A stretch of 64,000 nucleotides of DNA. It comes from Saprospiraceae bacterium (lineage in GTDB: Bacteria > Bacteroidota > Bacteroidia > Chitinophagales > Saprospiraceae). The notes beneath the pieces are model-generated. The model did no database searches, was not told where the DNA came from, and was given only the letters and a program-made list of their open reading frames with translations. The stretch covers positions 1-64,000 of the forward strand of contig JAIPBE010000015.1 in assembly GCA_021738725.1 (NCBI GenBank), in the 5' to 3' direction. Shown here piece after piece: positions 21,545 through 52,964 of this stretch (positions are counted from its first letter, which is position 1; each line of letters starts with the position of its first letter). The translations under genes and the position numbers were made by a program.

Positions 21545-21547
21545 CTC

Positions 21548-21555
21548 TATCTTTG
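21548..21555 (+). promoter_or_regulatory. TATCTTTG -7 box directly before the second MORN-caspase start
   Basis: TATCTTTG matches TAnnTTTG exactly and ends 4 bases before the ATG at 21560. A transcript from here would be essentially leaderless. No TTG is found 17-23 bases upstream, so it may be fortuitous and the gene may simply be co-transcribed with its neighbour. Confidence 0.3.
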
Positions 21556-21559
21556 TACG

Positions 21560-23242
21560 ATGCGGATAATGTACCTCCTCATTTTTGTCCTTCTTGGTGC
21601 CTTGACAGTTCAGGCCCAATGTATTTCCGGCGACTGCAGGAATGGCCGGGGAATCTATGTCTATCCTTCCGGGGCAAAATATATTGGGGATTTCAAAGAC
21701 GGTGAGATCCACGGTATCGGCACGTGCTATTATACGGATGGGAGCAAGTACCAGGGGGAGTGGAAGCATCGCTATCCACAGGGGAAAGGCATCAAGACAT
21801 ATGCGGATGGGTATAAATATTCCGGCTTGTGGATGAAAGGAAAACCGGTGGATGAAAAAGGGCAGCTCCTGGAAGAATATGCCATCACGGACAAGGAGGA
21901 GGATAACGACGGGACCGACATCCAGTCGGGTTGCATTGCGGGCGATTGCGAAAATGGATTGGGCACATTCGCCTATCCCGATGGCAGCAAATATGATGGC
22001 CAGTTTGTCAATGGAAAGTTGGTGGGGCTGGGAACCTGGTACTATGCCAATGGGGATAAGTATGTCGGCGCCTTCCGGAATAACTTTCCTCATGGGAAAG
22101 GGACGCTATACAATGCAGATGGAGCAGCGACGCAAGGAGAATGGCGGGATGGCGAATATGTAGGTTCCACGCAACCAGAAAAGATCCTGTTGGGCTGCAT
22201 CGAGGGCGATTGTAGTGAAGGTGTAGGTACGTATGTCTATCAGGATGCGTCAGCCACCTTCAGAGGTGAATTCGAACACGGCCGTCCGGCAGGGCAGGGG
22301 ACCGTGACGTTTATCAACGGTGACCGCTATTCTGGCGAATGGGAGGATGGACAATTCAATGGAAAGGGAACCCTCTACAAGCGGGATGGAACCGTTATTC
22401 GCGGGCTATGGACAAAAGGTCAGTACCAGATCCCGGCTGAAATGGAGGCAGAGCTTCTGGCCGAACGAACTGTCGATACAGGTGCTGTTCAGATCAACGA
22501 ACCAATGCTTCATGCCCGTCCGCAGAAGGTGTGGGCAGTGGTCGTCGGTGTGGCTGCCTATAATCATATGCCAGCCTTGCGCTATACGGATGATGACGCA
22601 TATCGGGTATATGCTTTCCTGAAGAGCCCTGAAGGAGGGGCACTACCGGACAGCCAGATCCGGATCCTGGTAGATGAAGAGGCGACCCTGGATCACATCC
22701 GGGAGACGATCCACAATCTCTTTTCCAAGGCAGGTCCGGATGATCTGGTCTTGCTCTACTTTTCCGGCCATGGCGTGAAAGGCGCCTTTTTGCCTTTTGA
22801 TTTTGATGGTTACAACCGAAAACTCCAGCACGAAGAGATCGGCGAGTTATTACAGAACAGCCCGGCACGCTATAAGATCTGTTTTGCGGATGCCTGCCAC
22901 AGCGGAGGACTGTTTGCTGAACGCGCAGTTGAAGTGCAGCCGGAATTGGTGAGTTTTTACCAGGATCTGTTTGCTGCGGCGCAAGGCACAGCGATCATCA
23001 TGTCTTCCAAATCGGAAGAGACCTCCCTGGAATCGAGCGGTCTCCGACAGGGAGTGTTCAGTCATTTCCTGATCCGCGGGCTGAAAGGAGAAGCTGACTA
23101 TAATGGAGATAGCCTGGTAAGCATCCAGGAATTGTACGATTACATCTATGTGAATGTGCGCGCCTATACCGGCATGCGCCAAAGCCCCGTCATCAAGGGA
23201 AATTACGATCCGCATATGCCGGTATCTACTGCCGCCAATTAG
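21560..23242 (+). CDS. MORN-repeat caspase-like (C14) protease 2
   Basis: 560 aa. A clear signal peptide ends at TVQAQ. Three MORN blocks (about 21-95, 125-200, 212-290) each open with a Cys-pair motif of the form CIxGDC (CISGDC, CIAGDC, CIEGDC). The caspase domain is at about 324-555, with H404 in LYFSGHG and C446 in FADACHSGG. MSSKSEETSLE and GVFSHFLIRGLKG correspond to the same segments in the upstream paralog. The two caspase domains align along their full length, while the MORN arrays differ in number. Expected to act outside the cytoplasm. Partners and substrates are unknown. Confidence 0.87.
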   Translation: MRIMYLLIFVLLGALTVQAQCISGDCRNGRGIYVYPSGAKYIGDFKDGEIHGIGTCYYTDGSKYQGEWKHRYPQGKGIKTYADGYKYSGLWMKGKPVDEKGQLLEEYAITDKEEDNDGTDIQSGCIAGDCENGLGTFAYPDGSKYDGQFVNGKLVGLGTWYYANGDKYVGAFRNNFPHGKGTLYNADGAATQGEWRDGEYVGSTQPEKILLGCIEGDCSEGVGTYVYQDASATFRGEFEHGRPAGQGTVTFINGDRYSGEWEDGQFNGKGTLYKRDGTVIRGLWTKGQYQIPAEMEAELLAERTVDTGAVQINEPMLHARPQKVWAVVVGVAAYNHMPALRYTDDDAYRVYAFLKSPEGGALPDSQIRILVDEEATLDHIRETIHNLFSKAGPDDLVLLYFSGHGVKGAFLPFDFDGYNRKLQHEEIGELLQNSPARYKICFADACHSGGLFAERAVEVQPELVSFYQDLFAAAQGTAIIMSSKSEETSLESSGLRQGVFSHFLIRGLKGEADYNGDSLVSIQELYDYIYVNVRAYTGMRQSPVIKGNYDPHMPVSTAAN

Positions 23243-25161: not shown

Positions 25162-26649
25162 TTAGTCCAGCCCCTTGGCGATCAACCTTTGCAGGTCAGA
25201 CTTCCATTCTTCTCCCCGGAGGTCCCAGGCTTTTCCATTGACGATCAGGTAGCGATAGTTTCCCTTCTCGTCCTGGAGATAGAACGTCGGGTTGCTGCCG
25301 AGACCGATGGGTTCACTGGCATTATCGTCCAGTCGGCGGACAGCCAGTGGAGCATCGGCATACCGTTCCGCCAGGGTGACCTGGCCCATTCGAATGATCG
25401 CTGTACCCGAGAGAATGAGATCGGTCAGGGGCTCCTCCCGCAGTTCAGCCATATCGATCATGACATGTGGATGCGTGCGGGCCGGGACGATCAGCCACTT
25501 GCCCTCTCCTTCCAGGATCGTATAGGCGCCATAGGGGGAGAGGTCGCCGATCTCTTCGATCTGCGCTTTGCGTACCCAGGTGCGGCCGTCCGGGCTGGTC
25601 TCTTCCTTGTGTTTGAATATGATGTCCACCAGGTAGGTTGAGCGGCCTGCTTGAATGTGGACCTCTTTCAAAAGCAGATCTGTCAGGTGATTCTGATTGA
25701 ATGGTATGTCGTTGTAGGTGCTGATCGGCTCATCGATATAGGTCTTTTTGGCGATCCCGTCCAGGGCGGCCACTAGCGTGGCAAAATAGAGCCGACGCAA
25801 GATTTGTTTCTCATCATCGCCGGGCAGCCAGCCCGCTTCGATCAGGATGGTGCGGGTGCCCCATTTCGTAAAATTGTCACCGAAGGCCCGGGGTTCGAAT
25901 GTATCCGAGTATTTCGCCACCTGATCGGGGATGAGCTTTTGCAGTCCGTTGGACAGGCCGCCGATCAGGCGCATGGCATCCTGGCGATGCGGGGGTTTGC
26001 TGCGGCTGACATCCGGAGGAGGGGCGAGGAAGGCGATCGCACTGGTGAGGTTGGAGATGCCGGCGCTGTAATAGCGATGTTGATCGTGGAGGTTGAATCC
26101 CCAGTCGGCGTCGAGGCTGTCCCGCCAGTGTTTGAGGATCTGCGCTTCCGGACTGGTCAGGCGAAGCGCATCGCGGTTGAGGTCAATGCCGAGGGCGTTC
26201 TGGCGTTCGTAGACTTCTGCGCCGTCCGGGTTGAGCAAGGGGAGGAATACCAGGGTCAGTCGCTCTTTCAGCTTGGCAGCCTCCGGCAGGAATGCCTCAT
26301 CCTGAAGCGCATTCCAGAGATCGAGGGTAGCCAGGGTGGCAGTGGGTTCATCGCCGTGCATCTGGGTCCAAAGGAGGACAGTCGTCGGACCGGAGCCCCA
26401 GGAGACGGCACGAATCTCCCGCCCCTGGACGGAATGTCCGGCGGTAGATACCCCGAAGGCAGGGTCTGCGGACAGGGCGTTGATCCGGGCGAGGATGTCG
26501 CTGTGTTTGAATCTTCGTTCATCGAGTCCTGCTTCCTTGACCTCCTCATGATGCCGGTACATTCGACGCATGAGGTCGGAGGATTGGGCGGGGAGGGAGG
26601 GTGTAACCCCGATAACAAGAATAAATAGTGTGAGACGCCAATGGATCAT
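25162..26649 (-). CDS. Secreted M14-family zinc carboxypeptidase
   Basis: 495 aa with a signal peptide (ends near SLPAQ). The M14 fold has zinc ligands in MHGDEP (His and Glu) and NLHDQH (His), the substrate motif DLNRD, and the catalytic Glu in ILIEAGWL. A C-terminal domain of about 150 residues follows. It removes C-terminal residues or acts on peptidoglycan peptides. Which of these is not clear. It is the intact copy of a gene whose 5' half is duplicated as a chimeric pseudogene at 29812-30843. It lies 47 bases after the small secreted gene of the first caspase unit. Confidence 0.85.
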   Translation of the reverse strand: MIHWRLTLFILVIGVTPSLPAQSSDLMRRMYRHHEEVKEAGLDERRFKHSDILARINALSADPAFGVSTAGHSVQGREIRAVSWGSGPTTVLLWTQMHGDEPTATLATLDLWNALQDEAFLPEAAKLKERLTLVFLPLLNPDGAEVYERQNALGIDLNRDALRLTSPEAQILKHWRDSLDADWGFNLHDQHRYYSAGISNLTSAIAFLAPPPDVSRSKPPHRQDAMRLIGGLSNGLQKLIPDQVAKYSDTFEPRAFGDNFTKWGTRTILIEAGWLPGDDEKQILRRLYFATLVAALDGIAKKTYIDEPISTYNDIPFNQNHLTDLLLKEVHIQAGRSTYLVDIIFKHKEETSPDGRTWVRKAQIEEIGDLSPYGAYTILEGEGKWLIVPARTHPHVMIDMAELREEPLTDLILSGTAIIRMGQVTLAERYADAPLAVRRLDDNASEPIGLGSNPTFYLQDEKGNYRYLIVNGKAWDLRGEEWKSDLQRLIAKGLD

Positions 26650-26696
26650 GCCTCAAGATATGTCTTCTCCTGGAAGTCATCCAGCCATGGGCAAGA

Positions 26697-27449
26697 TCAC
26701 CTTTGCGGTGCAATTCGTGATTCAAAATACCGATCTGTTGAAAGGTCAGTACGATTGCCACCCAATCCTTCCAGGATATGGTCCATCTTGTTGTCATCAA
26801 TACCTATTCCGATCCTAACATTGTCATCCGGATTTTCAATGACTGTAATGTCCAAGTCTGGTGGACTGAGATTATTCGTTTCTTCAACCAAAGGATTTGG
26901 ACAAGTTGTCGTTGAAAAGAAGGTTAGAATCTGAGGATTTTCAACCGTATCTGCAAAACCTACTACAAATTCACCATTCCACAGACTATACGTGCTATCC
27001 ACCAGATTTCCAAACTGGTCATATGCACATAATTTTGCTTTGTGAATAGGTTCTTTTGATGTTTCAAAGAATAATGTCCCACTTATTATATTCACAGGAT
27101 AATAATTATCTGTTTTTTTTGTCAAATAAAAAGTCAGGGATTCAATTGCCTGGTATTTATCCCTGATTATGAATTGTTGAGAATTTTTATTGGTACCTGA
27201 CAATGTAATTTTATCCTGGTCTTTCAGTTTGATTTTTTCAGGTCTGCCGAACCAACCGGTTCGTCTTTTCTTTTTGTCATTCAATCTGACCCCTTTTCGA
27301 GGTGAGCAATCGGGTTTGTCATCGCCGTTTCGGATATTGACAATAACATGGTTAGGTGACGGATTGTCCTGGCTGTAAAGATCAGGAGTTGACAGGATCA
27401 AAAGACATGTCAATAGGGCAAGTTTACAACAATGTGTTATTGTGGTCAT
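26697..27449 (-). CDS. Small secreted protein translationally coupled to a caspase gene (unit 1)
   Basis: 250 aa from the ATG at 27449, which overlaps the caspase stop as ATGA. A signal peptide ends near PDLYSQ. The mature part has a basic region (RKGVRLNDKKKRR), beta-rich stretches and TTTCPNPLVEE. No family is recognised. It occupies the same place as the 227-aa gene at 31047-31730 relative to its caspase, but similarity between the two is faint and mainly near the end (acidic DD then hydrophobic strand). A caspase substrate, inhibitor or adaptor would fit the coupling. That is inference. AT content is higher than in the M14 gene. Confidence 0.65.
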   Translation of the reverse strand: MTTITHCCKLALLTCLLILSTPDLYSQDNPSPNHVIVNIRNGDDKPDCSPRKGVRLNDKKKRRTGWFGRPEKIKLKDQDKITLSGTNKNSQQFIIRDKYQAIESLTFYLTKKTDNYYPVNIISGTLFFETSKEPIHKAKLCAYDQFGNLVDSTYSLWNGEFVVGFADTVENPQILTFFSTTTCPNPLVEETNNLSPPDLDITVIENPDDNVRIGIGIDDNKMDHILEGLGGNRTDLSTDRYFESRIAPQR

Positions 27450-29722
27450 TTCGATGTTTTTGATGATTCTGATTTGAGTAATGATTCGATTCCGGTGAGG
27501 CGACTCCATTTGGGCATTTTTTTAATTTCGCGAATAAGCTCCGGCTCAATACGCAATGCGCTGGTGAGAAAGTGGAAAGATGTTTCATGTGCGCCCTTAT
27601 CCAAATAAATAGATGCTTTTCTAAACAATGCCGAAGCGTATTGAGGTTGCAAACTGAGCATGGTATCACAGAGTGCAAGTGCCAGTTCCGGCTTGTTGAT
27701 CAATTGATAGAGAGAGGCTAGGCTATCCAGAGTAGCCAAACGATTTGGTGAAAGATGTAACGCAGTAATATAGCATGCTTCTGCTTCGGCTAGTTTTCCC
27801 TGGTGCAGGAATAACGCGCCAAGAGTATGATGTCCTCTGGTCAAGTCAGGGTTCAGGCTAATGGCTTTTTGAATTGCATTTTCGACATTAATCCAGTCTT
27901 TTTTTCGCATTAACTCTGCACCGAGATTAGACCATGCAAGTGCATTGGTTGAATCAAGACTGACCACATATTCAAAGGCCATAATTGCTTTTGACACATT
28001 TGGAAGATAGTGGTGTAATGCTCCCAGAGCTGTGTTGGTGGGTATACACATTGAATCGATTTCCAGATTTCTTTTTATCAATTCAGCTGCATCTTTAAAC
28101 CGGCCATAGTTTTTACAGAGCTCATATGCCAGTACTGCCCCGGGAAGTGTCCACACAGGAGCAAGTTCGTGCAGTTTGTGTAGTATGGTTATAGCGGAAT
28201 CCGGGTTGTTCATCTTCACAGCCAGACACCTGCTCATGCCATAATATGCAAGTGTGGAGTCAGATTGAAATTCAAGACTCCGTGAATATGCTGCCATGAC
28301 TTGGGTGGCACTTGAAGAATCGGTCTGTTCAGATGTTTTTAAATAGAGTGACATTCCCTCAAAAAGAGCCTCTCTGGCAAGAAGATCATTGTAGATGATG
28401 TGCTTCGGGCCCAGGAGCATGGCGGCCCGACGTATTTGTTGAGGGAATTTTTGCATTTTCGGCAATAGTTCCTGTCCGGCTGTCACGGTTCTGGTCTCTA
28501 CTGCCAACAGATTCATCAGTGTTCGCTGGGCATCATCCTGGAGAGCTGCAGCATAGTATCTAGTCAAGTATCTGTTTGCTTTTTCATTCAATCCCGGATG
28601 TTTCAGAATCTGGTTGTAAAGTGTTTCCGTGGATGCACTTGTCGAAGAGAAGAATTCTTCTCTGGCTATCGCATTTTTAAATTTGTTTACCAGGAAAAGG
28701 AGTGATGTGTCGGCATCATGAAAAAGAAGTTCTTCATATGACCGTTGCTCGATCATTTGAAAATTCGGAAATGATTTGCTGGTTGATGCTGTTCCAGCCA
28801 TTTCGATGGGTAACCGAGCTAATACCAGTTCAGGGTTTCCAGTTATCGTTGGATGTTGTAAAATTGGCGCTGTTTCCTGAAGGATATGTTCCTCCAGATA
28901 CCGTTTCATTTCATATAGTGTAATCGTGCCGTTTTCATCTTCATCAGCGCCTCCGGAGAGGCCCTGTATGACAAAATAGCTGAAAACCCCGTTGCCCTCG
29001 CCCCATTGTGAACTTTCCAGACTGACCTCATTTGGTTGACAGGCAAGTAATTTCGTTTCCTGTTCAAATTGCCTCATCATGGATTGAACAGTGAGTTGAG
29101 GTCCACCAAGGACCGACCCGGTCAGTTTGCCCGCACGACACGCATCAACAATCAACATGATGCGTGTTCGCTTATTGGTTGAAAGGGAGGTAGTGGCTTC
29201 TTTCAGTAAATGCATACTGATTGCTCCACCGGCACCATAAAGTTGAGGTGATGCATCATTGCAAAGGAGATAACCATCCTGGCCGAAAGCGCGTTGGACA
29301 TCACCATGGCCTGAAAAAAAGATGATGGCTTCATCTCCTTTATTTGATTCCTCTATTAACCATACTATTTCATTCAGGACTCTTGCAGCAGTAGCCTCCT
29401 CATTGATAATGACATGGAGTCTGCTAGCATCCATGTTTTTTCCATTTGGCGATCTAAGCCAATCTGCGAATGCCTCCGCATCCCTATGCGCAAAACGCAG
29501 ATCCGGAATATCCGAATGCTGATAATTGGAAATACCAACGACTACTGCTCTGGTGGTGCCATGACCGGTATTTTGATCCTGCAGGATCAACCCCGTATTC
29601 CCCTTTTCCTGCGCCATCGCAGGATGCAGTATCAACCCGAGCAGCAGCACCGTCACCCACTTCCACCAGACCATTCGGTGGAAGCCATTCCGAAGCTCTG
29701 GTTTGGTGTTCAGGTTTCCCAT
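27446..29722 (-). CDS. Secreted caspase-like protease with C-terminal TPR repeats (unit 1)
   Basis: 758 aa starting MGNLN, chosen because the paralog at 31723-34017 starts with the same residues. A long signal peptide ends at HPAMAQ. The caspase domain is at about 55-300, with H139 in IFFSGHG and C195 in IVDACRAG, the ACQPNEVSLES segment and GVFSYFVIQGLSGG. A helical spacer (about 310-470) leads to TPR repeats (about 480-745). The DACRAG active site differs from the DACYSG/DACHSG of the MORN proteins. The gene overlaps the following small secreted gene by 4 bases. The first 250 bases are nearly identical to those of the unit 2 copy. Confidence 0.85.
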   Translation of the reverse strand: MGNLNTKPELRNGFHRMVWWKWVTVLLLGLILHPAMAQEKGNTGLILQDQNTGHGTTRAVVVGISNYQHSDIPDLRFAHRDAEAFADWLRSPNGKNMDASRLHVIINEEATAARVLNEIVWLIEESNKGDEAIIFFSGHGDVQRAFGQDGYLLCNDASPQLYGAGGAISMHLLKEATTSLSTNKRTRIMLIVDACRAGKLTGSVLGGPQLTVQSMMRQFEQETKLLACQPNEVSLESSQWGEGNGVFSYFVIQGLSGGADEDENGTITLYEMKRYLEEHILQETAPILQHPTITGNPELVLARLPIEMAGTASTSKSFPNFQMIEQRSYEELLFHDADTSLLFLVNKFKNAIAREEFFSSTSASTETLYNQILKHPGLNEKANRYLTRYYAAALQDDAQRTLMNLLAVETRTVTAGQELLPKMQKFPQQIRRAAMLLGPKHIIYNDLLAREALFEGMSLYLKTSEQTDSSSATQVMAAYSRSLEFQSDSTLAYYGMSRCLAVKMNNPDSAITILHKLHELAPVWTLPGAVLAYELCKNYGRFKDAAELIKRNLEIDSMCIPTNTALGALHHYLPNVSKAIMAFEYVVSLDSTNALAWSNLGAELMRKKDWINVENAIQKAISLNPDLTRGHHTLGALFLHQGKLAEAEACYITALHLSPNRLATLDSLASLYQLINKPELALALCDTMLSLQPQYASALFRKASIYLDKGAHETSFHFLTSALRIEPELIREIKKMPKWSRLTGIESLLKSESSKTSK

Positions 29723-29811
29723 AAGCTCATCACTTATTGTGATTGCCATGGAAAATTAGTGAAAAATCAGAATTTTGTAGCTATGAGTTCGTTTTTTATC
29801 CTGGTTGCAAA

Positions 29812-30843
29812 TTATATATCCACTGAAAGTGTTGTGGAGTATGTACGTCCACTACCCGCGCACACATTTTTCCCATCATTCGTTTTCCTCAGAGCATGCA
29901 TCCAGGGGTCTATTTCGAGGACATAGTTGTATTCGTTAAAACCCTGTTTTAAAGCATTGTCCAACCACTGGAGGGCCGTTTTCTGGTTTTGTTTCTCATC
30001 ATCGCCGGGCAGCCAGCCCGCTTCGATCAGGATGGTGCGGGTGCCCCATTTCGTGAAGTTGTCGCCGAAGGCTCGGGGTTCGAAGGCATCCGAGTATTTC
30101 GCCACCTGATCGAGGATGAGTGCTTGGAGTCCATTGGACAGCCCACCGATCAGACGCATGGCATCCAGACGATGCGGGGGTTTGCTGCGGCTGACATCCG
30201 GAGGAGGGGCGAGAAAGGCGATCGCACTGGTGAGATTGGAGATGCCGGCGCTGTAATAGCGATGTTGATCGTGGAGGTTGAATCCCCAGTCGACATCCAG
30301 ACTGTCTCGCCAGTGTTTGAGGATCTGTGCTTCCGGACTGGTCAGTCGAAGGGCATCGCGGTTGAGGTCGATGCCGAGGGCGTTTTGTCGTTCATAGACT
30401 TCGCCACCATCCGGGTTGAGCAAGGGGAGGAACACCAGGGTCAGTCGCTCTTTCAGCTTTGCAGCCTCCGGGAGGAACACTTCATCCTGCAGGGCGTTCC
30501 AGAGATCGAGGGTGGCGAGGGTGCCGGTGGGCTCATCCCCGTGCATCTGCGTTCATAGCAGGACTGTGGTCGGCCCGGTGCCCCAGGATACGGCTTTGAT
30601 CTCACGGCCCATGACGGAATATCCAGCGGTGGATACTCCGAAGGCAGGATCCGTCGACAGGGCGTTGATCCGGGCCAGGATGTCGCTCTGTTTGAATCTC
30701 CGTTCATCGAGACCTGCTTCCTTGACCTCCTCATGATGCCGATACATCCGGCGCATGAGGTCGGAGGATTGGGCGTCCAACTGCACGCAAAGAAATGAAA
30801 GCGTGATGACAATTGAAAGTAGGCGGAATGTTGATCGTTTCAT
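29812..30843 (-). pseudogene. Chimeric pseudogene: 5' half of M14 carboxypeptidase joined to the tail of a caspase-TPR gene
   Basis: Read from 30843, the frame matches the intact M14 gene (QSSDLMRRMYRHHEEVKEAG shared) until a TGA at 30555-30553 replaces the Trp of LLWTQMHGDEP. The same frame then continues with M14 sequence, including DLNRD, NLHDQH and ILIEAGWLPGDDEKQ. At about 29987-29994 it switches to NQKTALQWLDNALKQGF...DPWMHALRKT, the C-terminal end of the caspase-TPR protein encoded at 34141-37572. The tail itself is frameshifted and misses the original stop. The joint lies in a short CAAA/CAAG match between the two parents. It marks the boundary of a tandem duplication. No functional product is expected. 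Confidence 0.85.
29985..30820. repeat. Duplicated M14 5' segment (copy of about 25795-26630)
   Basis: This stretch and the 5' half of the intact M14 gene agree base for base over long runs, for example around the shared TTCGCCACCTGATCG and GGGGTTTGCTGCGGCTGACA. Differences are scattered substitutions. Together with the caspase and tail copies it outlines one tandem duplication. Confidence 0.8.
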
Positions 30844-30924
30844 CAGCGCAAGGTAATCAAGACCATAGTATCCGGTTGAGATGAAATGGTATTCCAGGAT
30901 GGCCTTATATGAAGTTGATTAGCC

Positions 30925-31035
30925 AAAATGCTGTCGAAGAAACGCACGATGATCGAGGCGATTGCTTAGAAGCTTCAAAACCGATATCAATTGTCACCTG
31001 ATCCTCATCAGTTGTAATCGCGATTGGAATTCTCG
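30925..31035 (-). pseudogene. Remnant of a third small secreted gene (C-terminal fragment)
   Basis: On the - strand this gap encodes TDEDQVTIDIGFE, which matches KDDHATIDIAFDD near the end of the 227-aa protein encoded just upstream. After a frame change it reads IASIIVRFFDS against LIARIRSFFTH. There is no start codon and no N-terminal part. It suggests that another copy of the small gene was once here. The match is short. Confidence 0.4.
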
Positions 31036-31046
31036 AAGTAATGAAA

Positions 31047-31730
31047 TTATTCTGATGTCAACAATGTTGGCATGTGTGTAAAGAAAGATCTAATTCTTGC
31101 GATCAAGCCATGGGAATCATCAAAAGCAATATCTATGGTCGCGTGATCATCTTTCGTTTCGGGTTCTATATTAAGTTTCATCATTTCAACTTGCCCCAAC
31201 AAATAATGGACGGTATATGCATTGATAGTTCCACCTGTGGGTAAAGAATAAATTCCATCATCTGTATTCACCGTATTAGTGGGTACCGGGCATTCATCAC
31301 ATATGACAGTATAAACCTGGTTAGTTTGACCGTTGTGAGAAATACGACCTTCGATTCGCGGTTGTGCAGATATATTTCGATACAATGTTATACCCATTGT
31401 AGTTTTTCGGTTGAGACTTTCCACATTTTCCACATTCAAAGACAGGGACCTGTAGGTGGGGCTGCTTATGTTGAGCCGATCATTAGAATTAATGAAAAAC
31501 TTATCAGAATATCCAGTTGAATAAGTCTGGTAGGGTGTGGTTCTACTTTGACCGCCAGTTGTGGTAACATGTTGGATAGTCCCCATCAAAGGCGTTCTAC
31601 CCGATCCAGGACTGCTGCTCCCTGTCAACACAATTTGAAAATTTGGATCTGTAACTGCAACAAATAGAAAGAGAATGATCAGTGAATTAATAATGATGAG
31701 AAGTGGGAAAGGTTTGGTAAGGCTATTCAT
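31047..31730 (-). CDS. Small exported protein translationally coupled to a caspase gene (unit 2)
   Basis: 227 aa. Its ATG lies 8 bases inside the end of the preceding caspase gene, a coupling like that in unit 1. A hydrophobic N-terminal segment (LLIIINSLIILFLFVAV) may be a signal or an anchor. The rest is Ser/Thr-rich with VICDECPVP and a C-terminal acidic-strand motif DDHATIDIAFDD. No family is recognised. Divergence from the unit 1 partner is far greater than that between the two caspases, which suggests rapid change or replacement. Confidence 0.6.
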   Translation of the reverse strand: MNSLTKPFPLLIIINSLIILFLFVAVTDPNFQIVLTGSSSPGSGRTPLMGTIQHVTTTGGQSRTTPYQTYSTGYSDKFFINSNDRLNISSPTYRSLSLNVENVESLNRKTTMGITLYRNISAQPRIEGRISHNGQTNQVYTVICDECPVPTNTVNTDDGIYSLPTGGTINAYTVHYLLGQVEMMKLNIEPETKDDHATIDIAFDDSHGLIARIRSFFTHMPTLLTSE

Positions 31731-34017
31731 GATCGTCTTCCGTTTGGGTGTATTTCAATATAAGAATTTTCAATTCTGGTATATGTTCAAATTCGATGAT
31801 TCGAGGGTCGATTCCGGGATTTCGTTTTGTTGATTTCAAGGCTATAAAATAAGCTTCAATATTTAAGATTGTCCGGTCGATTTTATTTTGCTTCAGATAG
31901 ATTTGGGCTAATCTAAAATATGCAGTGTAGTCATTTGAATTCTGTTGGATCAAGGCATTTAATTCCTGAATGGCGAGATCGGTCTGTCCGGTTTGAAGAT
32001 ACAATACAACGAGGCTGTCTCTAGTCGGCTTATATTGAGGATTGATCTTTTTCGATTCATTGTACAATCGAATGGCATCGTCAATCCGGTTTGTATTGGA
32101 AAGAATACATCCATAAACATATCTGAGGTTGGCAATGTCTGGACATTTTGATATTCCTTCTTTCAAAATATGTTCAGCTTCTTGGTATCGTGATGGCGTG
32201 CTTATGACTGCTGCAAGATTACTCCAGCTGATCCCGTTGGTTGAATCCTGAGCTAATGCTCTTCTAAAGTTAGCCTCCGCTTCAACATATTTTTTTTGAT
32301 AATAGTATAAAGTGCCAAGACCTCGCCAGACGAGTACACTTGTGGAGTCCATTTCACTGGCCTCAAACAGTAGTTTATTTGCGATGTCAAATTCGAAATA
32401 TGGTTTTTTAATTAACAAGGTCGCAATATGTGTGTTCGGCAGGTTCCAGTTCATCGCTTTGGCATTTGCAAGGTGGACCTGTTCCAAGGTTGAATCTTGC
32501 ATTTGCATAATATTGATATATGCAAGTGCTTTGTAATAATGGACCACAGGTGAATTTTCTTCCAGAGCTAGAGATGCGTCGAAGAAATTCAGAATCCTTC
32601 GGCCTATGGCCGGATCATTACTCATCTCATTATCACCATATAGGAGAAACCCTTCCAGCCATTTTTCCCGTGCTTTCAAATTCTTGTACATGATATGATG
32701 GCTCCCTAATATTTCAGCTGACCGTGCAATTTGCCGCGGATAGTCCCGATAGGTATTGACCATAATTCTGGTTTCCGGCCCGGAGGTCAGGTTCGCATCC
32801 ATAATGGCGAGTAGGGCCTGTTGAATATCGTCCTGAAGAGCAACAGCATAATGCCGTTTGATGTAGCGTTTGAACTCTGAAGGAATCAGTGGATCCGATT
32901 GGATCATTTCGTAATATCGGTCAGCACAATGATCTGCAGGATCAAAGAATGCTTTCTCACGAACCAGGCTATTAAAGGTTGCGATCAATGTCTGTTGGGC
33001 AGTATCCAATCGGTTTATATAGGCCTCCTCATATCCACGTTCGCAGTAATAAGAAAGAATTTCCAGGTTATTATTGTCCTGAACCAATTGGTTGTTCTGG
33101 ACTGTTGAATCGACGACGGAAAGAGTTGCCTCTGCATCCCCCGAAATTTGGGGGTTTTGATAGAGTGGGGAGACTTCCTTTGAGACATGATACGTCAAAT
33201 AACGGTTCAGCTCACCCAGTTTCACGTTATGATCATCTTCTTCATCACTTTCGCCTAATAATCCACGGATGAGATAGTAACTGAATACACCTCGTCCATT
33301 CCCCAAACTTGGACTTTCCAGACTCATTTCGTTGGGTTGACATGCCATCAATTTGATCTCGTTTGCAAATTGTTCTTTCATGGCGGCGGCTGTCAGGTAA
33401 GGGCCACCTATGGGGCTTCCCGCTAGTTTACCGGCGCGGCATGCATCTGTTATCAAAATGACTTTTACGCGCTTCTCACTAAATGACTGGATTAATAATT
33501 TCAGGTGATAAACACTGAAGGCCCCGGTAGATCCGTAGAGTCTTGGTGAAGCATCATGGCACAACAGGAATCCTGTATTGCCATATTTTTGTTCGACATC
33601 ACCATGACCTGAAAAGTAGATAATGGCCTGATCACCTGGCTGACTTTCTTCGAGTAACCATGTAAGTTCACTTTCGAATCTGGCATTCGTCGCCATCGAA
33701 TCAACTAACAGTCGAATATGCTCAAGAGCCAGAGAACCGCCAGCACTGGATTGTAGATATTTGACGAATATCGTTGCATCCCGATCCGCAAAGCGCAGAT
33801 CCGGAATATCCGGATGCTGATAATTGGATATGCCAACGACTACTGCTCTGGTCGTACCTCGACTGTTATTTTGTTCATCCAGGATCAGCCCCGTATTCCC
33901 CTTTTCCTGGGCCATCGCAGGATGCAGTATCAACCCGAGATACAACACAGCAATCCACTTCCACCAGCACTCGTGGATGAAGTATTGAAGGTCTGTGTTG
34001 GCGTTCAGGTTCCCCAT
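31723..34017 (-). CDS. Secreted caspase-like protease with C-terminal TPR repeats (unit 2)
   Basis: 764 aa with a signal peptide (LILHPAMAQ). The caspase domain is at about 55-300, with H138 in IYFSGHGD and C193 in ITDACRAG. A helical spacer and TPR repeats follow (about 470-740; YRRALAQDSTNGISWSNLAAV type). It aligns throughout with the 758-aa protein of unit 1, best in the signal peptide and caspase domain. It lies 123 bases after the 1143-aa caspase-TPR gene on the same strand and overlaps the following small gene by 8 bases. Confidence 0.86.
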   Translation of the reverse strand: MGNLNANTDLQYFIHECWWKWIAVLYLGLILHPAMAQEKGNTGLILDEQNNSRGTTRAVVVGISNYQHPDIPDLRFADRDATIFVKYLQSSAGGSLALEHIRLLVDSMATNARFESELTWLLEESQPGDQAIIYFSGHGDVEQKYGNTGFLLCHDASPRLYGSTGAFSVYHLKLLIQSFSEKRVKVILITDACRAGKLAGSPIGGPYLTAAAMKEQFANEIKLMACQPNEMSLESPSLGNGRGVFSYYLIRGLLGESDEEDDHNVKLGELNRYLTYHVSKEVSPLYQNPQISGDAEATLSVVDSTVQNNQLVQDNNNLEILSYYCERGYEEAYINRLDTAQQTLIATFNSLVREKAFFDPADHCADRYYEMIQSDPLIPSEFKRYIKRHYAVALQDDIQQALLAIMDANLTSGPETRIMVNTYRDYPRQIARSAEILGSHHIMYKNLKAREKWLEGFLLYGDNEMSNDPAIGRRILNFFDASLALEENSPVVHYYKALAYINIMQMQDSTLEQVHLANAKAMNWNLPNTHIATLLIKKPYFEFDIANKLLFEASEMDSTSVLVWRGLGTLYYYQKKYVEAEANFRRALAQDSTNGISWSNLAAVISTPSRYQEAEHILKEGISKCPDIANLRYVYGCILSNTNRIDDAIRLYNESKKINPQYKPTRDSLVVLYLQTGQTDLAIQELNALIQQNSNDYTAYFRLAQIYLKQNKIDRTILNIEAYFIALKSTKRNPGIDPRIIEFEHIPELKILILKYTQTEDDHE

Positions 34018-34060
34018 ATGGTCATCACCTTAAGTGATTGCCATGGGAAATTAGTGAAAA
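33780..34060. repeat. Near-identical caspase 5' segment (matches about 29460-29760)
   Basis: The start of the unit 2 caspase gene and its upstream gap agree closely with the same part of unit 1, including shared GATTGCCATGG and AATTAGTGAAAAA in the gap and GCGCAGATCCGGAATATCCG in the coding part. Similarity continues upstream into the tail of the caspase-TPR gene and stops at the chimeric joint near 29990. Confidence 0.75.
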
Positions 34061-34140
34061 AATAGGATTTCAGGGCAACGAGTCCGTTCGTTGGTCTGGA
34101 TACGAAATATTTATAGACTATAAGAGTTGCGGAGTATGCC

Positions 34141-37100
34141 TTATCCCCGCATACATTTTTGCCACTCTGGTGTTTTCCTCAGATCATGCATCCAGGGATC
34201 TCTCTCGAGGACATAGGTGTATTCGCCAAAACCCTTTTTCAAGGCTTTGTCCAACCACTTGATCGCAGTTTTCTGATCTTGCTTTTTTGCATAGATACGG
34301 GCAACAGAATATGCATTTGCACCCGTTCCGGCATCGGCTGCATGGTTCATTTCGTACAGGTTGATGGCCTTGTCCAAGTCACCCGCCAGCAGCGCGTTCT
34401 GGGCGCGCAGGTCTGCGACCCGAAGGGTCTGCTGAGGATCCAGGATAAACCCGGCAGTTTTATCCAGTAAATGGGTACCTGCAGCAAATCGTGCATCCAG
34501 ATTATTCATGCGTGCTAACTTCAGATGCGTAGGGAACCGCAAATGCCCGACAGAATCCTGATAGGCGAGGTGTTCACGCACCTTTGGCAACTGGTACCGA
34601 GCTTGATAGCTCTCGATGATCTTATCACGCAGGTCATCCTGCGTGGGGGCATATGTCAACGCTCGTTCATATAAAGATTCGGCCTCGTCGCGTTTTTCAA
34701 GATGGAGCTGAATATCGCCTTGTTTTTGTAATACATCCGCGCGCTCATGGGCATAGACCAGATAGGGGAAGGCCATGTTCAAGAGGGACAGAGGCTTCTC
34801 GCACACCTGCGGCCAATAGATCAGATCAGGGTGTTTGTTCACATGCCTCGGTTGTGACCACGCCATATAGTAGTGGGTCACCAGGGCCAGATGATGTGAT
34901 GGATCGGGATCATCAAAACTGTCCTCAAATCCTTCATTTCGTACTTCATAATTCTTTTCCCTGCGCAAACAGATATTGTACAACAAATTGGCGGGTCGAA
35001 TGAGCCAGGTGGCTTGCCCGGGCATGCGATTAATCATGCGCAGATAAAACTGGTAAAGTTCCTGATCATTGCTATAGGGGCCGGTTATGTTTTGTCGGAA
35101 ATAGACTTCTTCAGCTTCGGTAAAACGACCAGTCCGTTCATATAAAGCGCCCAGCTTCTGGTACAGGATTACCTGGCTGGAGTCCTGAGACAAGAGTTCA
35201 TGGTAGATCTTTTCCGCCTCGGACCAACGCCCCCAGGATTCTGCGATCAGGGCATGCAGCATCTTCCTGCCATCTTCTTCAGGTTCATGTTCCGTTGCCA
35301 GTGTAATGCTCTGGTCAGCCAACTCATATTTTCCCACTTTGAAATATGCCCAGGCCAGTTGATCGTAAACGATGCGGTATTCAGGATCCAATTCGACAAC
35401 TGTTAAAAAACGGGGGATGGCTTTTTCATATTTCTCATCGAGACTGTAGACCTGTCCCAATTCGTAATACAGACTTGGATCTTTGGGATTTTTCTGAATG
35501 AGCGCCAGGAGTTCTTCTTCCGTTCTGAAATTTTCGCCATAAAAGTCTGGCGCCATTACATCCGAGTACCCATCCATATCTACATCCAGCGGAGAAATGG
35601 GCAGGTTCTTTTTCAGGTATTCTGCGATGACAAAATTCTCGTTGGCCATGACAAATTCTCCGGTTTGCTGGTAGAGATACCCCAGTCGTTCAAAACCGGC
35701 AAAATGTTGAGGAGCGAGCTGCGTGCATCGGAGGAAAGATGCTTCCGCATACAAATACCGATTCTGTTTTTCGTAGATCCGTCCCTGGATCAAATGCGCG
35801 TTCGCATATTCAGGGAGAAGCGAAAGTGCCTTTTCGACCATTTGTTGGGCTTCATCCAATCGCTTTTCACCAATGAGCATGGAAGCCAGATTCGCGTACG
35901 GCAATCCCCAGGTGGGAGCCAGTTCCTGTGCCAAGCGAAAGTGTTTTTCAGCCAGGTCGTTCTGCTTGCGGTATCGGTACAGGATACCCAGCTCATTATG
36001 CACGTAGGGCGCCTTGTCATCCAGGGCAAGCGCTTTGAGCTGCAGGGCCAGCGCATCGGTATAAGCCTGGGTGCGATCCTCCAGGGAGACAGCCAGAATA
36101 CGAATTGCCGCGCCCGAAAAATAGGCTTCTTTCACGGCGAGCCGGTCCCGAAGCGGGTGACCTTCCGGCAGCAGCTTGAGGACCATTTTGAAGATATCCG
36201 GATACCACCGGTATTTGGAGGTTTCATACTTGTAATAGGCGCGCTCCTCCAGGTCATCCGGATCGGCCTTCAAATAGTTGTTGATGATCTCTTGCCCCCG
36301 GTCGTGGAGAGCGATCGCCAACTTCAGGTTAAAGGCTTTCAAGGCCTCTGGATCTTGCACATCGATGCCGGCAAGTTGCCAGAAGTTGTCCAGTTTGTAT
36401 TGTTTGTCCGCGTCGATCTGATGCGCTCGAGCAACCTCAGCAAACTGGGACATGAAGGCGACCGGGATCTCCAGTGCAGGTAACGCCAGGAGAGCCGGGA
36501 GGTCCATATCATCGATCAAGGCTTCATCCTTGTTGGTCGAAAACAGAAGCTCAATGGGGCTTTCTTCCTGGACTAGCATCAGCACGATATCATCATCATC
36601 ATCCATGCCTCGCCCTCCGGTAGTTCCATCGGCCATGACCATGTCTCCCGAGCTGCCCTCATTGGTCAAAGCAGTGAAGATCTCCGGGACGACAAATCCC
36701 AGAGGAAAAGTTTCAGATGCAGAAACGATGATCGGGTCCTGCCGTTGGGGCGGATCGAGGGATTTGGTGTCTTTGACAACCGTTTGCCGAAAATAATCCG
36801 CTAGCTCTTCAGCGGTGACGGCATCCATGTCTGTCGTATTACTTTCATCATTAGCCAGTCCCTGCAAGCCACGGATCAGATAATAGGAGAACACGCCTCG
36901 ACCTCCGCCCCAGCTGGAGCCTTCAGCCGACTTTTGATCCGGCTTGCACGAAAGGATGCGCACCTCGTTTGCCTTTTGCTTTGCCAGGTTTTCCGTAGGG
37001 ACGTTACGGCCCTCCGCCAGGGTACCCGCCCGGCAGGCATCCAGGATGAATGTTGTGCGCACATTTCGAACGGATGACAACTCAATCGCGAGCAGGTCGA

Positions 37101-37572
37101 GATCTTCGACCCGAATCGCATTATTCCTGTAATTGTTGGGTGGGGAATCGTACGTCAAGAGATAGCCAAGCTGCCAAAGTGCAGCCACCTCCACATCTCC
37201 ATGTCCGGCAAAGTATAACAGGGCCACATCCCCTTCTTTAGACGATGTTTTAAGCCAGTTCATGGCATCATCCACGGCGGCTAACGTCGCATCCGCATTG
37301 GTCAGCACTCGGATCTGTTTCTGGATTTTCCCGGCGGCATCAGACCGCAGGTAATCGGCAAACGCCTGGGCATCCAGATGGGCATATTTGAGTGGTCGGA
37401 TTCCTGGGTCCCGATAATCAGACACCCCGATCACGACAGCACGCATGGTCGGTGCATCTACAGGTGGTGTCGTGGTCGAAGATCTGCGGATCGGTTGGGC
37501 GGAAACCATGGACGACACGAAGAGACCCAAAAATAAACAGGATAAAGAGACGTAGATGTAGTGACGGATCAT
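34141..37572 (-). CDS. Large secreted caspase-TPR protein A
   Basis: 1143 aa from the ATG at 37572, giving a signal peptide that ends SMVSAQ. The paralog has the same start and the same spacing to a conserved upstream box. The caspase domain is at about 40-300, with H124 in LYFAGHGD and C180 in FILDACRAG, then ILSCKPDQKSAEGS and GVFSYYLIRGLQG. A helical region (about 360-500) and about a dozen TPR repeats follow, up to a terminal segment (ALKKGFGEY...DPWMHDLRKTPEWQ). That tail is the part found fused to M14 in the pseudogene at 29812. TPRs suggest protein binding in the envelope. Confidence 0.87.
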   Translation of the reverse strand: MIRHYIYVSLSCLFLGLFVSSMVSAQPIRRSSTTTPPVDAPTMRAVVIGVSDYRDPGIRPLKYAHLDAQAFADYLRSDAAGKIQKQIRVLTNADATLAAVDDAMNWLKTSSKEGDVALLYFAGHGDVEVAALWQLGYLLTYDSPPNNYRNNAIRVEDLDLLAIELSSVRNVRTTFILDACRAGTLAEGRNVPTENLAKQKANEVRILSCKPDQKSAEGSSWGGGRGVFSYYLIRGLQGLANDESNTTDMDAVTAEELADYFRQTVVKDTKSLDPPQRQDPIIVSASETFPLGFVVPEIFTALTNEGSSGDMVMADGTTGGRGMDDDDDIVLMLVQEESPIELLFSTNKDEALIDDMDLPALLALPALEIPVAFMSQFAEVARAHQIDADKQYKLDNFWQLAGIDVQDPEALKAFNLKLAIALHDRGQEIINNYLKADPDDLEERAYYKYETSKYRWYPDIFKMVLKLLPEGHPLRDRLAVKEAYFSGAAIRILAVSLEDRTQAYTDALALQLKALALDDKAPYVHNELGILYRYRKQNDLAEKHFRLAQELAPTWGLPYANLASMLIGEKRLDEAQQMVEKALSLLPEYANAHLIQGRIYEKQNRYLYAEASFLRCTQLAPQHFAGFERLGYLYQQTGEFVMANENFVIAEYLKKNLPISPLDVDMDGYSDVMAPDFYGENFRTEEELLALIQKNPKDPSLYYELGQVYSLDEKYEKAIPRFLTVVELDPEYRIVYDQLAWAYFKVGKYELADQSITLATEHEPEEDGRKMLHALIAESWGRWSEAEKIYHELLSQDSSQVILYQKLGALYERTGRFTEAEEVYFRQNITGPYSNDQELYQFYLRMINRMPGQATWLIRPANLLYNICLRREKNYEVRNEGFEDSFDDPDPSHHLALVTHYYMAWSQPRHVNKHPDLIYWPQVCEKPLSLLNMAFPYLVYAHERADVLQKQGDIQLHLEKRDEAESLYERALTYAPTQDDLRDKIIESYQARYQLPKVREHLAYQDSVGHLRFPTHLKLARMNNLDARFAAGTHLLDKTAGFILDPQQTLRVADLRAQNALLAGDLDKAINLYEMNHAADAGTGANAYSVARIYAKKQDQKTAIKWLDKALKKGFGEYTYVLERDPWMHDLRKTPEWQKCMRG

Positions 37573-37596
37573 CGAGCGTTTGTGTTTGTAGATGCC

Positions 37597-37604
37597 TAAA
37601 TATA
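37597..37604 (-). promoter_or_regulatory. Conserved -7 box (TATATTTA) upstream of caspase-TPR A
   Basis: On the - strand TATATTTA fits TAnnTTTG except for the last base and is preceded by a TTG 21 bases upstream. The surrounding block, ATCCTTATATTTAG to ACAAACACAA, is shared with the paralog at 41277-41284 at the same 24-base distance to the start codon. Confidence 0.5.
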
Positions 37605-37817
37605 AGGATAGCATGGCATGTGTTTCAATAATAAAGAGAATGCATCCCAACCGTTTTGTCCGTATTGGATGCGAGTATGGCCCGATCTAATGGGAATGGG
37701 GGTGTGCCCTGTCATCATAAGATCGGTCTATCAGGCAACGGTATGATGTTCCCTCATGTCGCTGAACTTCGACCAGTATACGAGGCCGGCCGTTTGAACT
37801 GCGTTTGGTAAAAGTAT

Positions 37818-40800
37818 TTATTCAATGATAATTCGCTTCCACTTGGAGGTATTTCGGAGCCTAACCATAGCTGGATCACGAGCCACCACCCAACGGTATT
37901 GGCGGAATCCCAGTTTCATGGCTTTGTCCACCCAAAGCAAAGCCTTTTTTCTATGTTTCTGGGAGGCATGAATACGGGCTATGGACCATGCAGATTCTCC
38001 GTGATCCGGATGCAAGGTATGATTGCGTTCATAGAGGGTTAATGCATGGGTGAGATCGCCCTTCAGGACGGCATTCTGTGCCTCCAACGCGTCTAATGAT
38101 CTGGACTCTTCTGGTCCCATCATCATGTCCTTTGCTGTATGCATGACTTCACCGGCCTTCTGGAAATAACCATTCAGATTATTCATGCGTACCAGGACCA
38201 GGTGATCCGGATAATGCAGTCGTCCCAGTGAATCCTGTTGGGCCAGCAGTTTTCGGGCTTTCTCATATTGCTGTTCCGCGATATATTCCTGGATCATATC
38301 GTCTCTGATATCCTCCCGAAAGGGAGCGTGATTGAAGGCGCGCTGAAAATCGGATAATGCCTGATCTACATGATTAAGTTGAAGATGGATATTGCCTGTT
38401 TTTTGCAAAATACTTGCTCGTTCAAAAGGGGAAAGTATATAGGGATAGATCGACTGGAATAGTTCTAATGCATTTGCGCAAGCATTCTGTTTGACACGCA
38501 GATCTGGATGGATGGAATATGGCAGAGGGGACCACCAGGTGGAGTAGAATTCATCGACTGTGGTGGACTTGTCGTAGGCATTACCGTGCACTTTTTCCGC
38601 CGAGGAGTGCCCCATCGCAGGTTGACTCTTTGGAACGGTTATGCACTCCTGATAGAGGATCATACCCGCTCGTTGTTTCCAGGAATACTGACTGGGCATC
38701 TTATCAGACATCCGGAGATAAAACGTATAGAGCGCATTTCGTCCAGCCTCTTTATAATAATTCCGGTATTCCAAATATGTCATCTCAGCCTCGACATCCT
38801 GTTCTGTTCTCTCGTATAATGCGCCCAATTTCTGGTAGCCTAGTTGAAAGGAGGGATTATGATTGAGTAAGTCTCGATAGATCTTTTCTGCCTGGCTCCA
38901 TCGCCCCCACTTTTCTGCCAATAATGCCTTCAGCATATCTCGCCCTTCATCATATCCAGTGAGACGTTCTGCCAGGGTAAGCATGCGGTCGGCCAGTTCA
39001 TATTTTTCAAGTTTTAAATAAGTCCAGGCAAGATGGTCATAGAGTTGCGGGGTATCGGCATCCATTTGCAAAACTGTTTGGAAAGCAGTCAACGCTTCTG
39101 CGTACTGACGCTTCTTACTGGCCTCTTCACCGAGTTGCATGTAATATTCTGGACCCGGATCTCCTACCGGATAGGTGGATAACGATTCGGGAATCGTATA
39201 TACAGATTTGTCTCCAAACGCGTCTGGATATTTATGTGGGCCAGCCGTCACGTCTGGAAAATTAAATTGTTGGGCAATAAAATCAAATCGATCCAGCAGT
39301 TTATTGATTATTTCGAAATTCGCGTTGGCTTTGTCATATTCACCTGTCTGGAGATATAGATATCCCAGACGATCATATGCAGCAAAGTCTTCCGGCGCCA
39401 ACCGTATACAATGCAGATATTCTACTTCCGCCTCCAGGAATAGTCGATTCAATTCATAGATCCGCCCCTGATGGAGGTGGGAAATGTAATTGTCCGGCAT
39501 CAGTTGAAGTGCCCTGGATGCGTATTCCTGGGCTTCGGTCAGGCGATTCTGAAGGATCAGGGTAGCACAAAGATTCGCATATGGGAGGCCCCATGAGGGA
39601 GCCAGCTCGAGTGCTTTACGGAAGTGATATTCCGCTTTTTTCATTTGTTCTGTGCGTTTGTATAGGATGCCCAATTCATTGTGCACATAGGGGGCATGGG
39701 GATCCAGACTCAGTGCTTTTTGTTGTAAGGCCATCGCTTCAGCATAAGCAGGAGCCGGATCTTTCAGCCCTATGGCCAGGATCCGGACAGAAGCGCCTGA
39801 AAAGTATGCCTCCTTTACGGCGACGCGATCCCGAAGTGGGTGACCTTCCGGCAACAACTTGAGCACCAGTTTGAAAATATCGGGGTACCATCGATATTTG
39901 GTGGTTTCAAATTTCTGGAAAGCACGCTCTTCCAGATCATCCGGATCGGATCGGAGATAGCTGTTAATGATCTCCTGGCCCCGATCGTGTAGATCGATCG
40001 CCAGCTTGAGGTTAAAGGCTTTCATCGTCGCGGGATCATAGACATTGATGTCGGCCTGCTGCCAATAGTTGTTCAAATTGAATTGAAGTTCCGGATTGAC
40101 ATTCTGTTTTTGAGCGGCCGTAGCAAGCTGGGTTATGAACGCGATCGGGATCTCCAGGGCAGGTAGTGCCAGGAGGGCAGGGAGGTCCATATCATCGATC
40201 AAGGCCTTATCCTGATGGGTTGTCAAGAGAAGATCAATGGGGCTTCCTGCCTGGACTTTCGTGAGGGTGAAAACATCATTATCCTTACCACGCCCATCGG
40301 TCGTGCCATCTGCCATGACTATATCTCCAGAGCTGGCCTCATTGGTCAAAGCAGTGAATATTTCCGGGACGACAAACCCCAGGGGAAAGGTCTCAGATGC
40401 AGAAACAATGATCGGGTCCTGCCGTTGTGGTGGATCCAGGGATTTGGTGTCCTTGACGACCGTCTGCCGAAAATAGTCCGCCAGTTCTTCCACTGTGACG
40501 GCATCCAGGTCGGTCGTATTGCTTTCATCATTGGCCAAGCCTTGTAAGCCACGGATCAAATAATAGGAGAACACGCCCCGACCACCGCCCCAGGTGGAGC
40601 CTTCAGCCGACTTTTGATCCGGCTTGCAAGAAAGGATGCGCACCTCATTTGCCTTTTGTTTCGCCAGGTTTTCAGTGGGCACGCTGCGGCCCTCCGCCAG
40701 GGTGCCTGCTCGACAGGCATCCAGGATGAAGGTTGTGCGCACATTTCGAACGGATGACAGTTCAATGGCGAGCAGGTCGAGATCTTCGACCCGGATCGCA

Positions 40801-41252: not shown

Positions 41253-41276
41253 GGAACGATTGTGTTTGTGGATTTC

Positions 41277-41284
41277 TAAATATA
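41277..41284 (-). promoter_or_regulatory. Conserved -7 box (TATATTTA) upstream of caspase-TPR B
   Basis: Same box, same flanking sequence and same distance to the ATG as at 37597-37604. The 154-base gap to the divergent gene at 41407 presumably holds promoters for both directions. No TTG is found at the expected -33 position here. Confidence 0.45.
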
Positions 41285-41406
41285 AGGATTGCATGGAATG
41301 TAACCGGGAAAAGAATGTTATCCAGCATGGATCGGTAACTGACGACGGTCCATTTTGTCTTATCTTTCCAAGACTAGCCTTTCTTCTGTCCGATTAAATC
41401 TTAAAC

Positions 41407-43350: not shown

Positions 43351-43379
43351 GCTGAGGCTGACGGAATGATCAACCTGAC

Positions 43380-52821: not shown

Positions 52822-52964
52822 TGAATGTCTGTAAGGCTTGTTCGGAGAGCGGTTTCATGAAACCATTCAGGCGGTCCTCGGCTAAGCGGAAATCAGGTTG
52901 GAATTTCTACCAGTAGACGCCCCACTTTTGCTATGTGACTCGAGCACTTCCTTATATTCGCCCC

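Follow-up and report, generated by a model that had tools for sequence, protein, structure and literature searches.

Can a single tandem duplication explain why half of a peptidase gene lies inside an array of caspase genes? The question is raised by a 64,000-nucleotide window (bases 1-64000 of contig C83, from a draft genome of 4.18 Mb in 109 contigs, 97.9 % complete) whose minus strand carries, 5' to 3', A0, A1, B1, C1, a chimera of an M14 5' half (D1) with an A1-type tail, B2, C2 and D2 (Table 1). The first-pass annotation had read this order as the outcome of one tandem duplication, with a joint in a few shared bases near 29987-29994, and concluded that the island grows by local duplication. 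We compared the locus with itself and with related genomes in a genus sample of five, the window's own included, three of which have B genes at this locus.

Table 1. Features of the caspase array in the window
Feature	Position	Strand	Description
A0	37818-41294	minus	tandem paralogue of A1; the A0/A1 pair is common to L033
A1	34141-37650	minus	caspase-TPR; the duplicated tail derives from its 3' end; homogenised with A0 over the first ~400 residues
B1	31723-34017	minus	caspase-TPR; body orthologous to L034 3435-5729 (caspase domain 80 % aa)
C1	31047-31730	minus	small protein; 8-nt overlap with the end of B1
D1	29988-30843	minus	M14 5' half, 285 codons, with its own N-terminal leader; TGA at 30553-30555
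Joint	29988-29994	minus	AAACAAA, common to M14 and, as AAGCAAG, to the A1 tail; in-frame fusion
Duplicated A1 tail	29860-29994	minus	TPR end-of-group region, then A1/B1-type intergenic sequence up to B2
B2	27446-29749	minus	caspase (C14)-TPR; third body type; codons 1-85 homogenised with B1 (Pfam; dS by segment)
C2	26697-27509	minus	small protein; start probably at 27449 (ATGA overlap with B2), not 27509
D2	25162-26649	minus	intact metallocarboxypeptidase of the M14 family; signal peptide assigned by eye

Self-BLASTN of 19.0-46.5 kb returned two repeat blocks that meet at the joint. The first pairs 25803-26590 with 29988-30775 (788 bp, 89.6 % identity, no gaps, E 0.0) and the second pairs 29478-29994 with 33776-34284 (518 columns, 79.0 %, E 1.6e-122), that is, the A1-type tail and B2 start with the A1 tail and B1 start. 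They overlap at 29988-29994 only. Both the proposed order, with the M14 5' half joined to a caspase-TPR tail, and the likeness of that tail to the caspase-TPR end were borne out by these blocks. On the minus strand the overlap reads AAACAAA in D1 and D2 and AAGCAAG in the A1 tail, so the microhomology at the joint is 5-7 bp, imperfect today, and it lies where the annotation had placed it. Both parents are in frame at this point (DEK-Q and KK-Q). The copied A tail can be aligned over 38 codons, after which there is a 1-nt length difference from A1; the tail region of A1 matches NF047558 at residues 1113-1167. The locus has the direct repeat, and the novel joint fusing the ends of the unit, that characterise a tandem duplication, and it is from this arrangement that we infer the event.

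The annotation had called for a relative lacking the duplication, and isolate 8_bin.14 (L033; M14 85 % identical to that of the window) provides one, with the single-module order A0-A1-B-C-D-OMP-transglycosylase. The order in Ww120 (L034, the reverse complement of G105:C8; M14 77 % identical) is B(a)-C-[M14 remnant with stops, A tail]-B(b)-C-C-D-OMP-transglycosylase; the two C genes in a row behind one B (L034 5726-7147) represent an extra copy of C alone. In Go_SlAct_bin_199 (L035; M14 57 % identical) the order is helicase, M14, OMP, transglycosylase, with no caspase match in 21.4 kb and the helicase-like gene directly adjoining D. The names helicase and OMP were assigned by eye, and the transglycosylase-like gene matches NF008050 below its cut-off. 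In G151, just one 3-kb contig with an M14 fragment was found. Read from gene order, the modules vary in number and order among species.

Synteny in L033, L034 and L035 marks D2 as an old chromosomal neighbour of the OMP-like and transglycosylase-like genes. The window orthologue of the L035 helicase-like gene lies at 52953-55226 (77 % identical) and, with the M14 side, this places the caspase island between two old neighbours. Because L035 keeps helicase, M14, OMP and transglycosylase without caspases, M14 is a bystander: a breakpoint fell within the gene and took its first half along, and it does not count as a founding member of the caspase set. The same gene order led us to reject M14 as a default functional partner of the caspases, although it may have been recruited as such later.

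The different parts of the duplicated unit do not share one date. The B1 and B2 proteins are 38 % identical overall, and their nucleotide similarity by self-BLASTN is confined to the block of A tail and codons 1-85, plus one 47-bp stretch. With B2 taken from the ATG at 29722, dS between the two genes is 0.35 in codons 1-85, 1.58 in codons 86-160 and 1.92 in codons 501-740, and is undefined between 160 and 501. For the A tail, dS is 0.64 (38 codons); the intergenic sequence next to it has 69 % identity in 130 aligned columns. With dS of 0.35-0.64, compared to 0.95-1.8 to L033, the flanks look younger than the species, whereas the B bodies, at 1.6-1.9 or undefined, have orthologues across species.

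Comparison with L033 and L034 separates leader from body. Caspase domains are 80 % identical between B1 and L034 Bb, 63 % between L033 B and L034 Ba and 53 % between B1 and B2; the corresponding values for the TPR parts are 55 %, 49 % and 25 %. In the first 50 residues, B1 and B2 are 70 % identical and L034 Ba and Bb 94 %, while identity is 29 % for both B1-L034 Bb and L033 B-L034 Ba. Trees of 18 B-type proteins join B1 with L034 Bb and L033 B with L034 Ba (ultrafast bootstrap 100), for the caspase and TPR parts alike, and these pairings mean that the B bodies split before the species; they also show that the B types of L034 stand in swapped order relative to the window. A later split applies to the A tail, to the leader of B and, with less certainty, to the M14 half. 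The trees are also suggestive of B2 as a hybrid, with a caspase part nearer B1 and a TPR part nearer L033 and L034 Ba.

The switch is visible at single sites. In the quartet of B1 and B2 with L034 Bb and Ba, codons 1-80 hold 64 sites that pair the paralogues, 2 that pair the orthologues and none that are crossed, against 56, 190 and 52 in codons 81-764 (Fisher p 3e-30; since neighbouring sites are linked, this value and that for the A genes below overstate the case). As a control, the orthologues B1 and L034 Bb show the reverse of the paralogues, with 54 % nucleotide identity in codons 1-85 versus 66-70 % in residues 86-500, but the control breaks at the far end, where residues 501-740 are 53.5 % identical and no better than the leader. 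Within L034, dS between Ba and Bb is 0.58 in codons 1-85 and at least 2.0 or undefined in later segments.

One tandem duplication alone, after which bodies diverged fast and flanks slowly, was the reading of the first-pass annotation, and it accounts for the gene order and the joint. The B1 body, however, is nearer the L034 gene than B2 in both caspase and TPR parts, and the B1 leader has the reverse affinity. A single history cannot give both, so this reading is contradicted and we regard it as very improbable. What stands is the arrangement, which fits a tandem duplication; a single event followed by divergence is not supported, because the B bodies predate the species.

A second gene pair behaves likewise. 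We compared A0 and A1 with the L033 pair, numbering residues on A1 from 37575 and leaving the last ~44 residues outside the bins. Paralogue, orthologue and crossed sites number 90, 21 and 13 in residues 1-400, then 22, 22 and 13 in residues 401-600, and finally 25, 209 and 28 in residues 601-1100 (Fisher p 6e-39, residues 401-600 left out). As the A0/A1 pair is common to L033, its homogenised 5' part cannot stem from a new duplication and is most simply put down to conversion or an equivalent exchange. For this reason we prefer that cause for the leaders of B and for the M14 half as well. Paralogues closer within tracts and orthologues closer outside them, the mark of concerted evolution, are found in these two gene pairs.

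It is conceivable that the segment [A1 tail-B-C-M14 5' half] was duplicated once, recently, in this lineage, and that recombination with a divergent module from another strain then replaced the body of B, together with C, in one copy. The single module of L033 agrees with this, as does the similar dS of the flanks, lower than to L033: a single event could have produced all three flanks, and one copy could have had its body exchanged afterwards. Such a history requires an unseen donor, however, and B1 and L034 Bb have diverged as under vertical descent (caspase 80 % aa, M14 77 %). Moreover, A0 and A1 are homogenised at their 5' ends alike without a new duplication, and L034 Ba and Bb repeat the pattern of a low dS in codons 1-85 only. 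We therefore consider recent duplication with replacement of a body unlikely.

The parent of the M14 half-copy, D2, matches Pfam PF00246 (E 2.2e-10), and its AlphaFold2 model (pLDDT 87) has the M14 fold, with 4b6z as best Foldseek match (E 3.8e-13), among carboxypeptidases; at the sequence level, a phmmer search of the PDB with M14 found no match at E<=0.001. H98, E101, H188 and E271, which we take to have catalytic roles or to be zinc ligands, are invariant across 21 M14 proteins. Domain, predicted fold and putative zinc ligands agree in placing D2 in Peptidase M14. Homology between D1 and D2 starts around the signal-peptide cleavage region, and M14 comparisons between species have the same starting point. 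At the other end, the fusion point is where a long helix that closes the carboxypeptidase part begins in the D2 model (residues 282-301). The A1 tail supplies the residues after this point in the chimera, and may thereby let the carboxypeptidase domain fold.

Between D1 and D2, dS is 0.46 and dN 0.03 (255 codons); between D2 and L033, dS is 0.95 over the same half and 1.06 over the whole gene, and the OMP and transglycosylase genes of the window and L033 differ by 1.76 and 1.73. The 82 differences in the 255 codons comprise 34 on the D1 lineage (2, 6 and 26 by codon position), 30 on that of D2 (4, 3 and 23) and 18 ambiguous ones, which were dropped. Counted by codon, and leaving out codons that could not be polarised, D1 acquired 23 synonymous changes, 5 nonsynonymous changes and 1 stop, and D2 19 and 3. 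Compared to a neutral expectation of 29 % synonymous, the D1 count has a p of 3.6e-8, and it is unlikely that D1 evolved neutrally for more than ~20 % of its branch (P 0.039 for a neutral phase of 20 %, 0.005 for 30 %). At the same time, 4 of the 15 residue differences between D1 and D2 (stop counted) fall at columns invariant in the 21 M14 proteins, a number not below that expected for random placement (P 0.80), and this chance level suggests that D1 is now relaxed. Our reading is that purifying selection acted on D1 during most of its history and was relaxed recently, with a late TGA at a Trp codon of intact M14. The annotation had likewise put the gain of the TGA after the making of the copy.

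Quartet sites for M14 (30 for D1+D2, 12 for D1+L033, 6 for D1+L034) and a bootstrap of 91 favour D1 with D2. The AU test does not reject the tree joining D1 with L033 (p-AU 0.117; the program warned that replicates were too few), so a D1/D2 split after that of L033 is favoured, not proven; support falls to 53/71 when L035 is added. Third-position differences are unevenly spread along D1/D2 (0 of 5000 permutations reach the observed value); we discarded this as proof of conversion because D2-L033 is similarly uneven.

L034 also has a joint of M14 remnant and A tail between its two B modules. Its A-side end lies within ~20 nt of that in the window, and its M14 part stops near codon 57. The A-tail remnants share a 1-nt deletion and a G-to-N change, which suggest one ancestral joint; the window remnant is 78.5 % identical to its own A1 and 57.6 % to the L034 remnant, which is 61.6 % identical to A1. 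One ancestral joint with later deletion and two separate events are both possible. Apart from the remnant, no A1 C-terminus of Ww120 is among the matches listed. On another Ww120 contig (L156, G105:C189) the sequence ends inside an A gene, beside a DUF4384 caspase; a caspase-DUF4384 gene adjoins an A gene in the L033 genome (L162) too. The second joint bears on whether the first is an assembly chimera of metagenome reads. The window comes from a draft in 109 contigs, and near-repeats of 79-90 % can mislead short-read assembly, but L034 was assembled separately and its joint has nearly the same A-side position, which makes an artefact unlikely. The substitutions and N-terminal leader of D1 also differ from any other copy seen, and we hold a chimera to be extremely improbable.

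We consider it probable that a tandem duplication with a joint was followed by concerted evolution of the array, the bodies being kept distinct. The region is a tandem array of caspase-TPR modules, each a B gene with its small partner C, and stands between the A1 tail and the bystander M14. A tandem duplication with ends in the A1 tail and mid-M14, joined at the few-bp microhomology, would have created the visible joint. Homologous recombination between tandem copies, by gene conversion or unequal crossing-over, would then keep certain parts alike within a genome: the A1 tail and B leader, the M14 5' half and the first third of A0/A1. The B bodies (most of the caspase domain plus the TPR part), older than the species, have remained distinct, as has C. 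Selection would have preserved the M14 half-copy, in its in-frame fusion to the A1 tail, for most of its life until the late TGA. Homogenised 5' ends within genomes and diverging 3' bodies are most simply explained by concerted evolution through ordinary recombination. Growth of the island by local duplication is retained, yet it is too simple an account, since copies are re-blended at their 5' ends and the number and order of modules vary between species.

Concerted evolution by gene conversion has been described in trypanosome tandem arrays (PMC1855330), human gene pairs (PMC2720389) and bacterial rRNA operons (PMC6002687). As in concerted tandem duplicates, the window paralogues are more alike than orthologues in tracts with edges; unlike concerted evolution in general, the tracts comprise only caspase leaders or 5' ends and the peptidase half-copy, and exclude the 3' bodies. 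Among the papers listed in literature searches, none, judged by title, treats gene conversion in bacterial caspases.

The array could alternatively be a cassette system, in which B-C pairs with a constant leader and an interchangeable caspase/TPR body and partner are swapped and stored between two repeated flanks, the A1 tail and leader upstream and the M14 5' half downstream. Within each genome the B genes do have a constant head and a variable tail, as CDI/Rhs-like modules have. In the parts of PMC3150448 used here, orphan arrays of CDI/Rhs loci likewise have a constant upstream part, a divergent downstream part and a small partner gene, with tandem extra modules that often open with a fragment of the upstream gene and are rearranged between strains. 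The window modules differ in that no B lacks a start and leader of its own, the constant part extends over no more than ~85 codons, and the genes as read have no known toxin or immunity activity. We think a cassette system rather unlikely. If it were true, the captured bystander fragment would be a recombination handle, as orphan modules may be in CDI/Rhs loci, and the arrays of L033, L034 and the window would each have arisen by deletion from a single ancestor with three modules.

PF00656 (C14) scores above cut-off in A0, A1, B1 and B2, and their translations carry GHGD and DACRAG, which we take to be the motifs of the C14 His-Cys dyad; by these features the four proteins are predicted members of C14 (bacterial metacaspases/orthocaspases). 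A1, B1 and B2 score 68.6-77.4 bits against NF047832 (EACC1-associated caspases), below its cut-off of 140. When ten proteins were scanned singly with PADLOC models, six matched a generic caspase model and four matched nothing; A1 also matches two TPR-type models weakly. C1 and C2 matched no family in Pfam, PADLOC and NCBI-type NF profile scans. BLASTP shows no direct similarity between them worth naming, and their kinship emerges only when profiles are compared (hhalign probability 87, E 4e-6, three sequences per side). Aligned together with four relatives, they form a single family that evolves fast and in which a C-terminal D-x3-I-x4-D-D is invariant. The C2 model is all-beta, and at a pLDDT of 54 it was too poor for a structure search, so a fold assignment was dropped. 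In each of the five B-C pairs inspected the two genes share 4-8 nt, if C2 is read from its ATGA start, and each pair is therefore probably translated together. Hydrophobic N termini ending in A-Q-type sites, read by eye, suggest that the array proteins are probably exported. Most likely, the array would provide exported caspases that differ in the partners selected by their TPR tails.

Other caspase genes lie nearby or in congeners. Two tandem MORN-repeat caspases at 19943-23242 of the window are 39 % identical to each other and not homogenised, each being far closer to its L033 orthologue (74 % and 91 %). At the far edge of the island, 41407-46220 holds a divergently placed caspase-DUF4384 gene and a TPR-CHAT gene. 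In the congener G150, neighbouring caspase-TPR genes (L155 6667-11507) have caspase domains 90 % and TPR parts 37 % identical; their dS of 1.2 indicates that this tandem is not recent. All five genomes of the genus sample, the window's own included, have a B match at E<=0.001, and at least two B-type genes occur on five contigs besides that of the window (G105 C8, G105 C263, G150 C3, G151 C261 and G152 C228). At E<=1e-30, with up to 17 candidates scored per genome, B homologues occur in at least 12 of 61 family genomes, the window's own included, and among the matches listed at this threshold no contig but the window's has two.

Haliscomenobacter hydrossis and the window organism are presumably related bacteria. 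A 2012 survey counted 28 metacaspases in H. hydrossis (PMC3501461). The window resembles the metacaspase-rich Bacteroidetes of that survey in its many caspase homologues and in TPR, there among the common partner domains. In the portion of the survey considered here, duplication is raised only as a possibility, with duplication and paralogue evolution left to further phylogenetic analysis, and no joint or conversion like that seen in the window is described. The locus is a workable case: besides the joint, there is one relative with a single copy and another with a rearranged order, and within individual genes relatedness clearly changes over from within-genome to between-genome. It also carries a warning, in that identity between adjacent copies does not date the duplication here. 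For the organism, the array would keep a number of caspases that are alike in their leaders but not in their TPR tails and would probably serve different partners or substrates. This bears on the reason why certain Bacteroidota have caspase homologues in such numbers, up to 28 per genome in the 2012 survey (PMC3501461).
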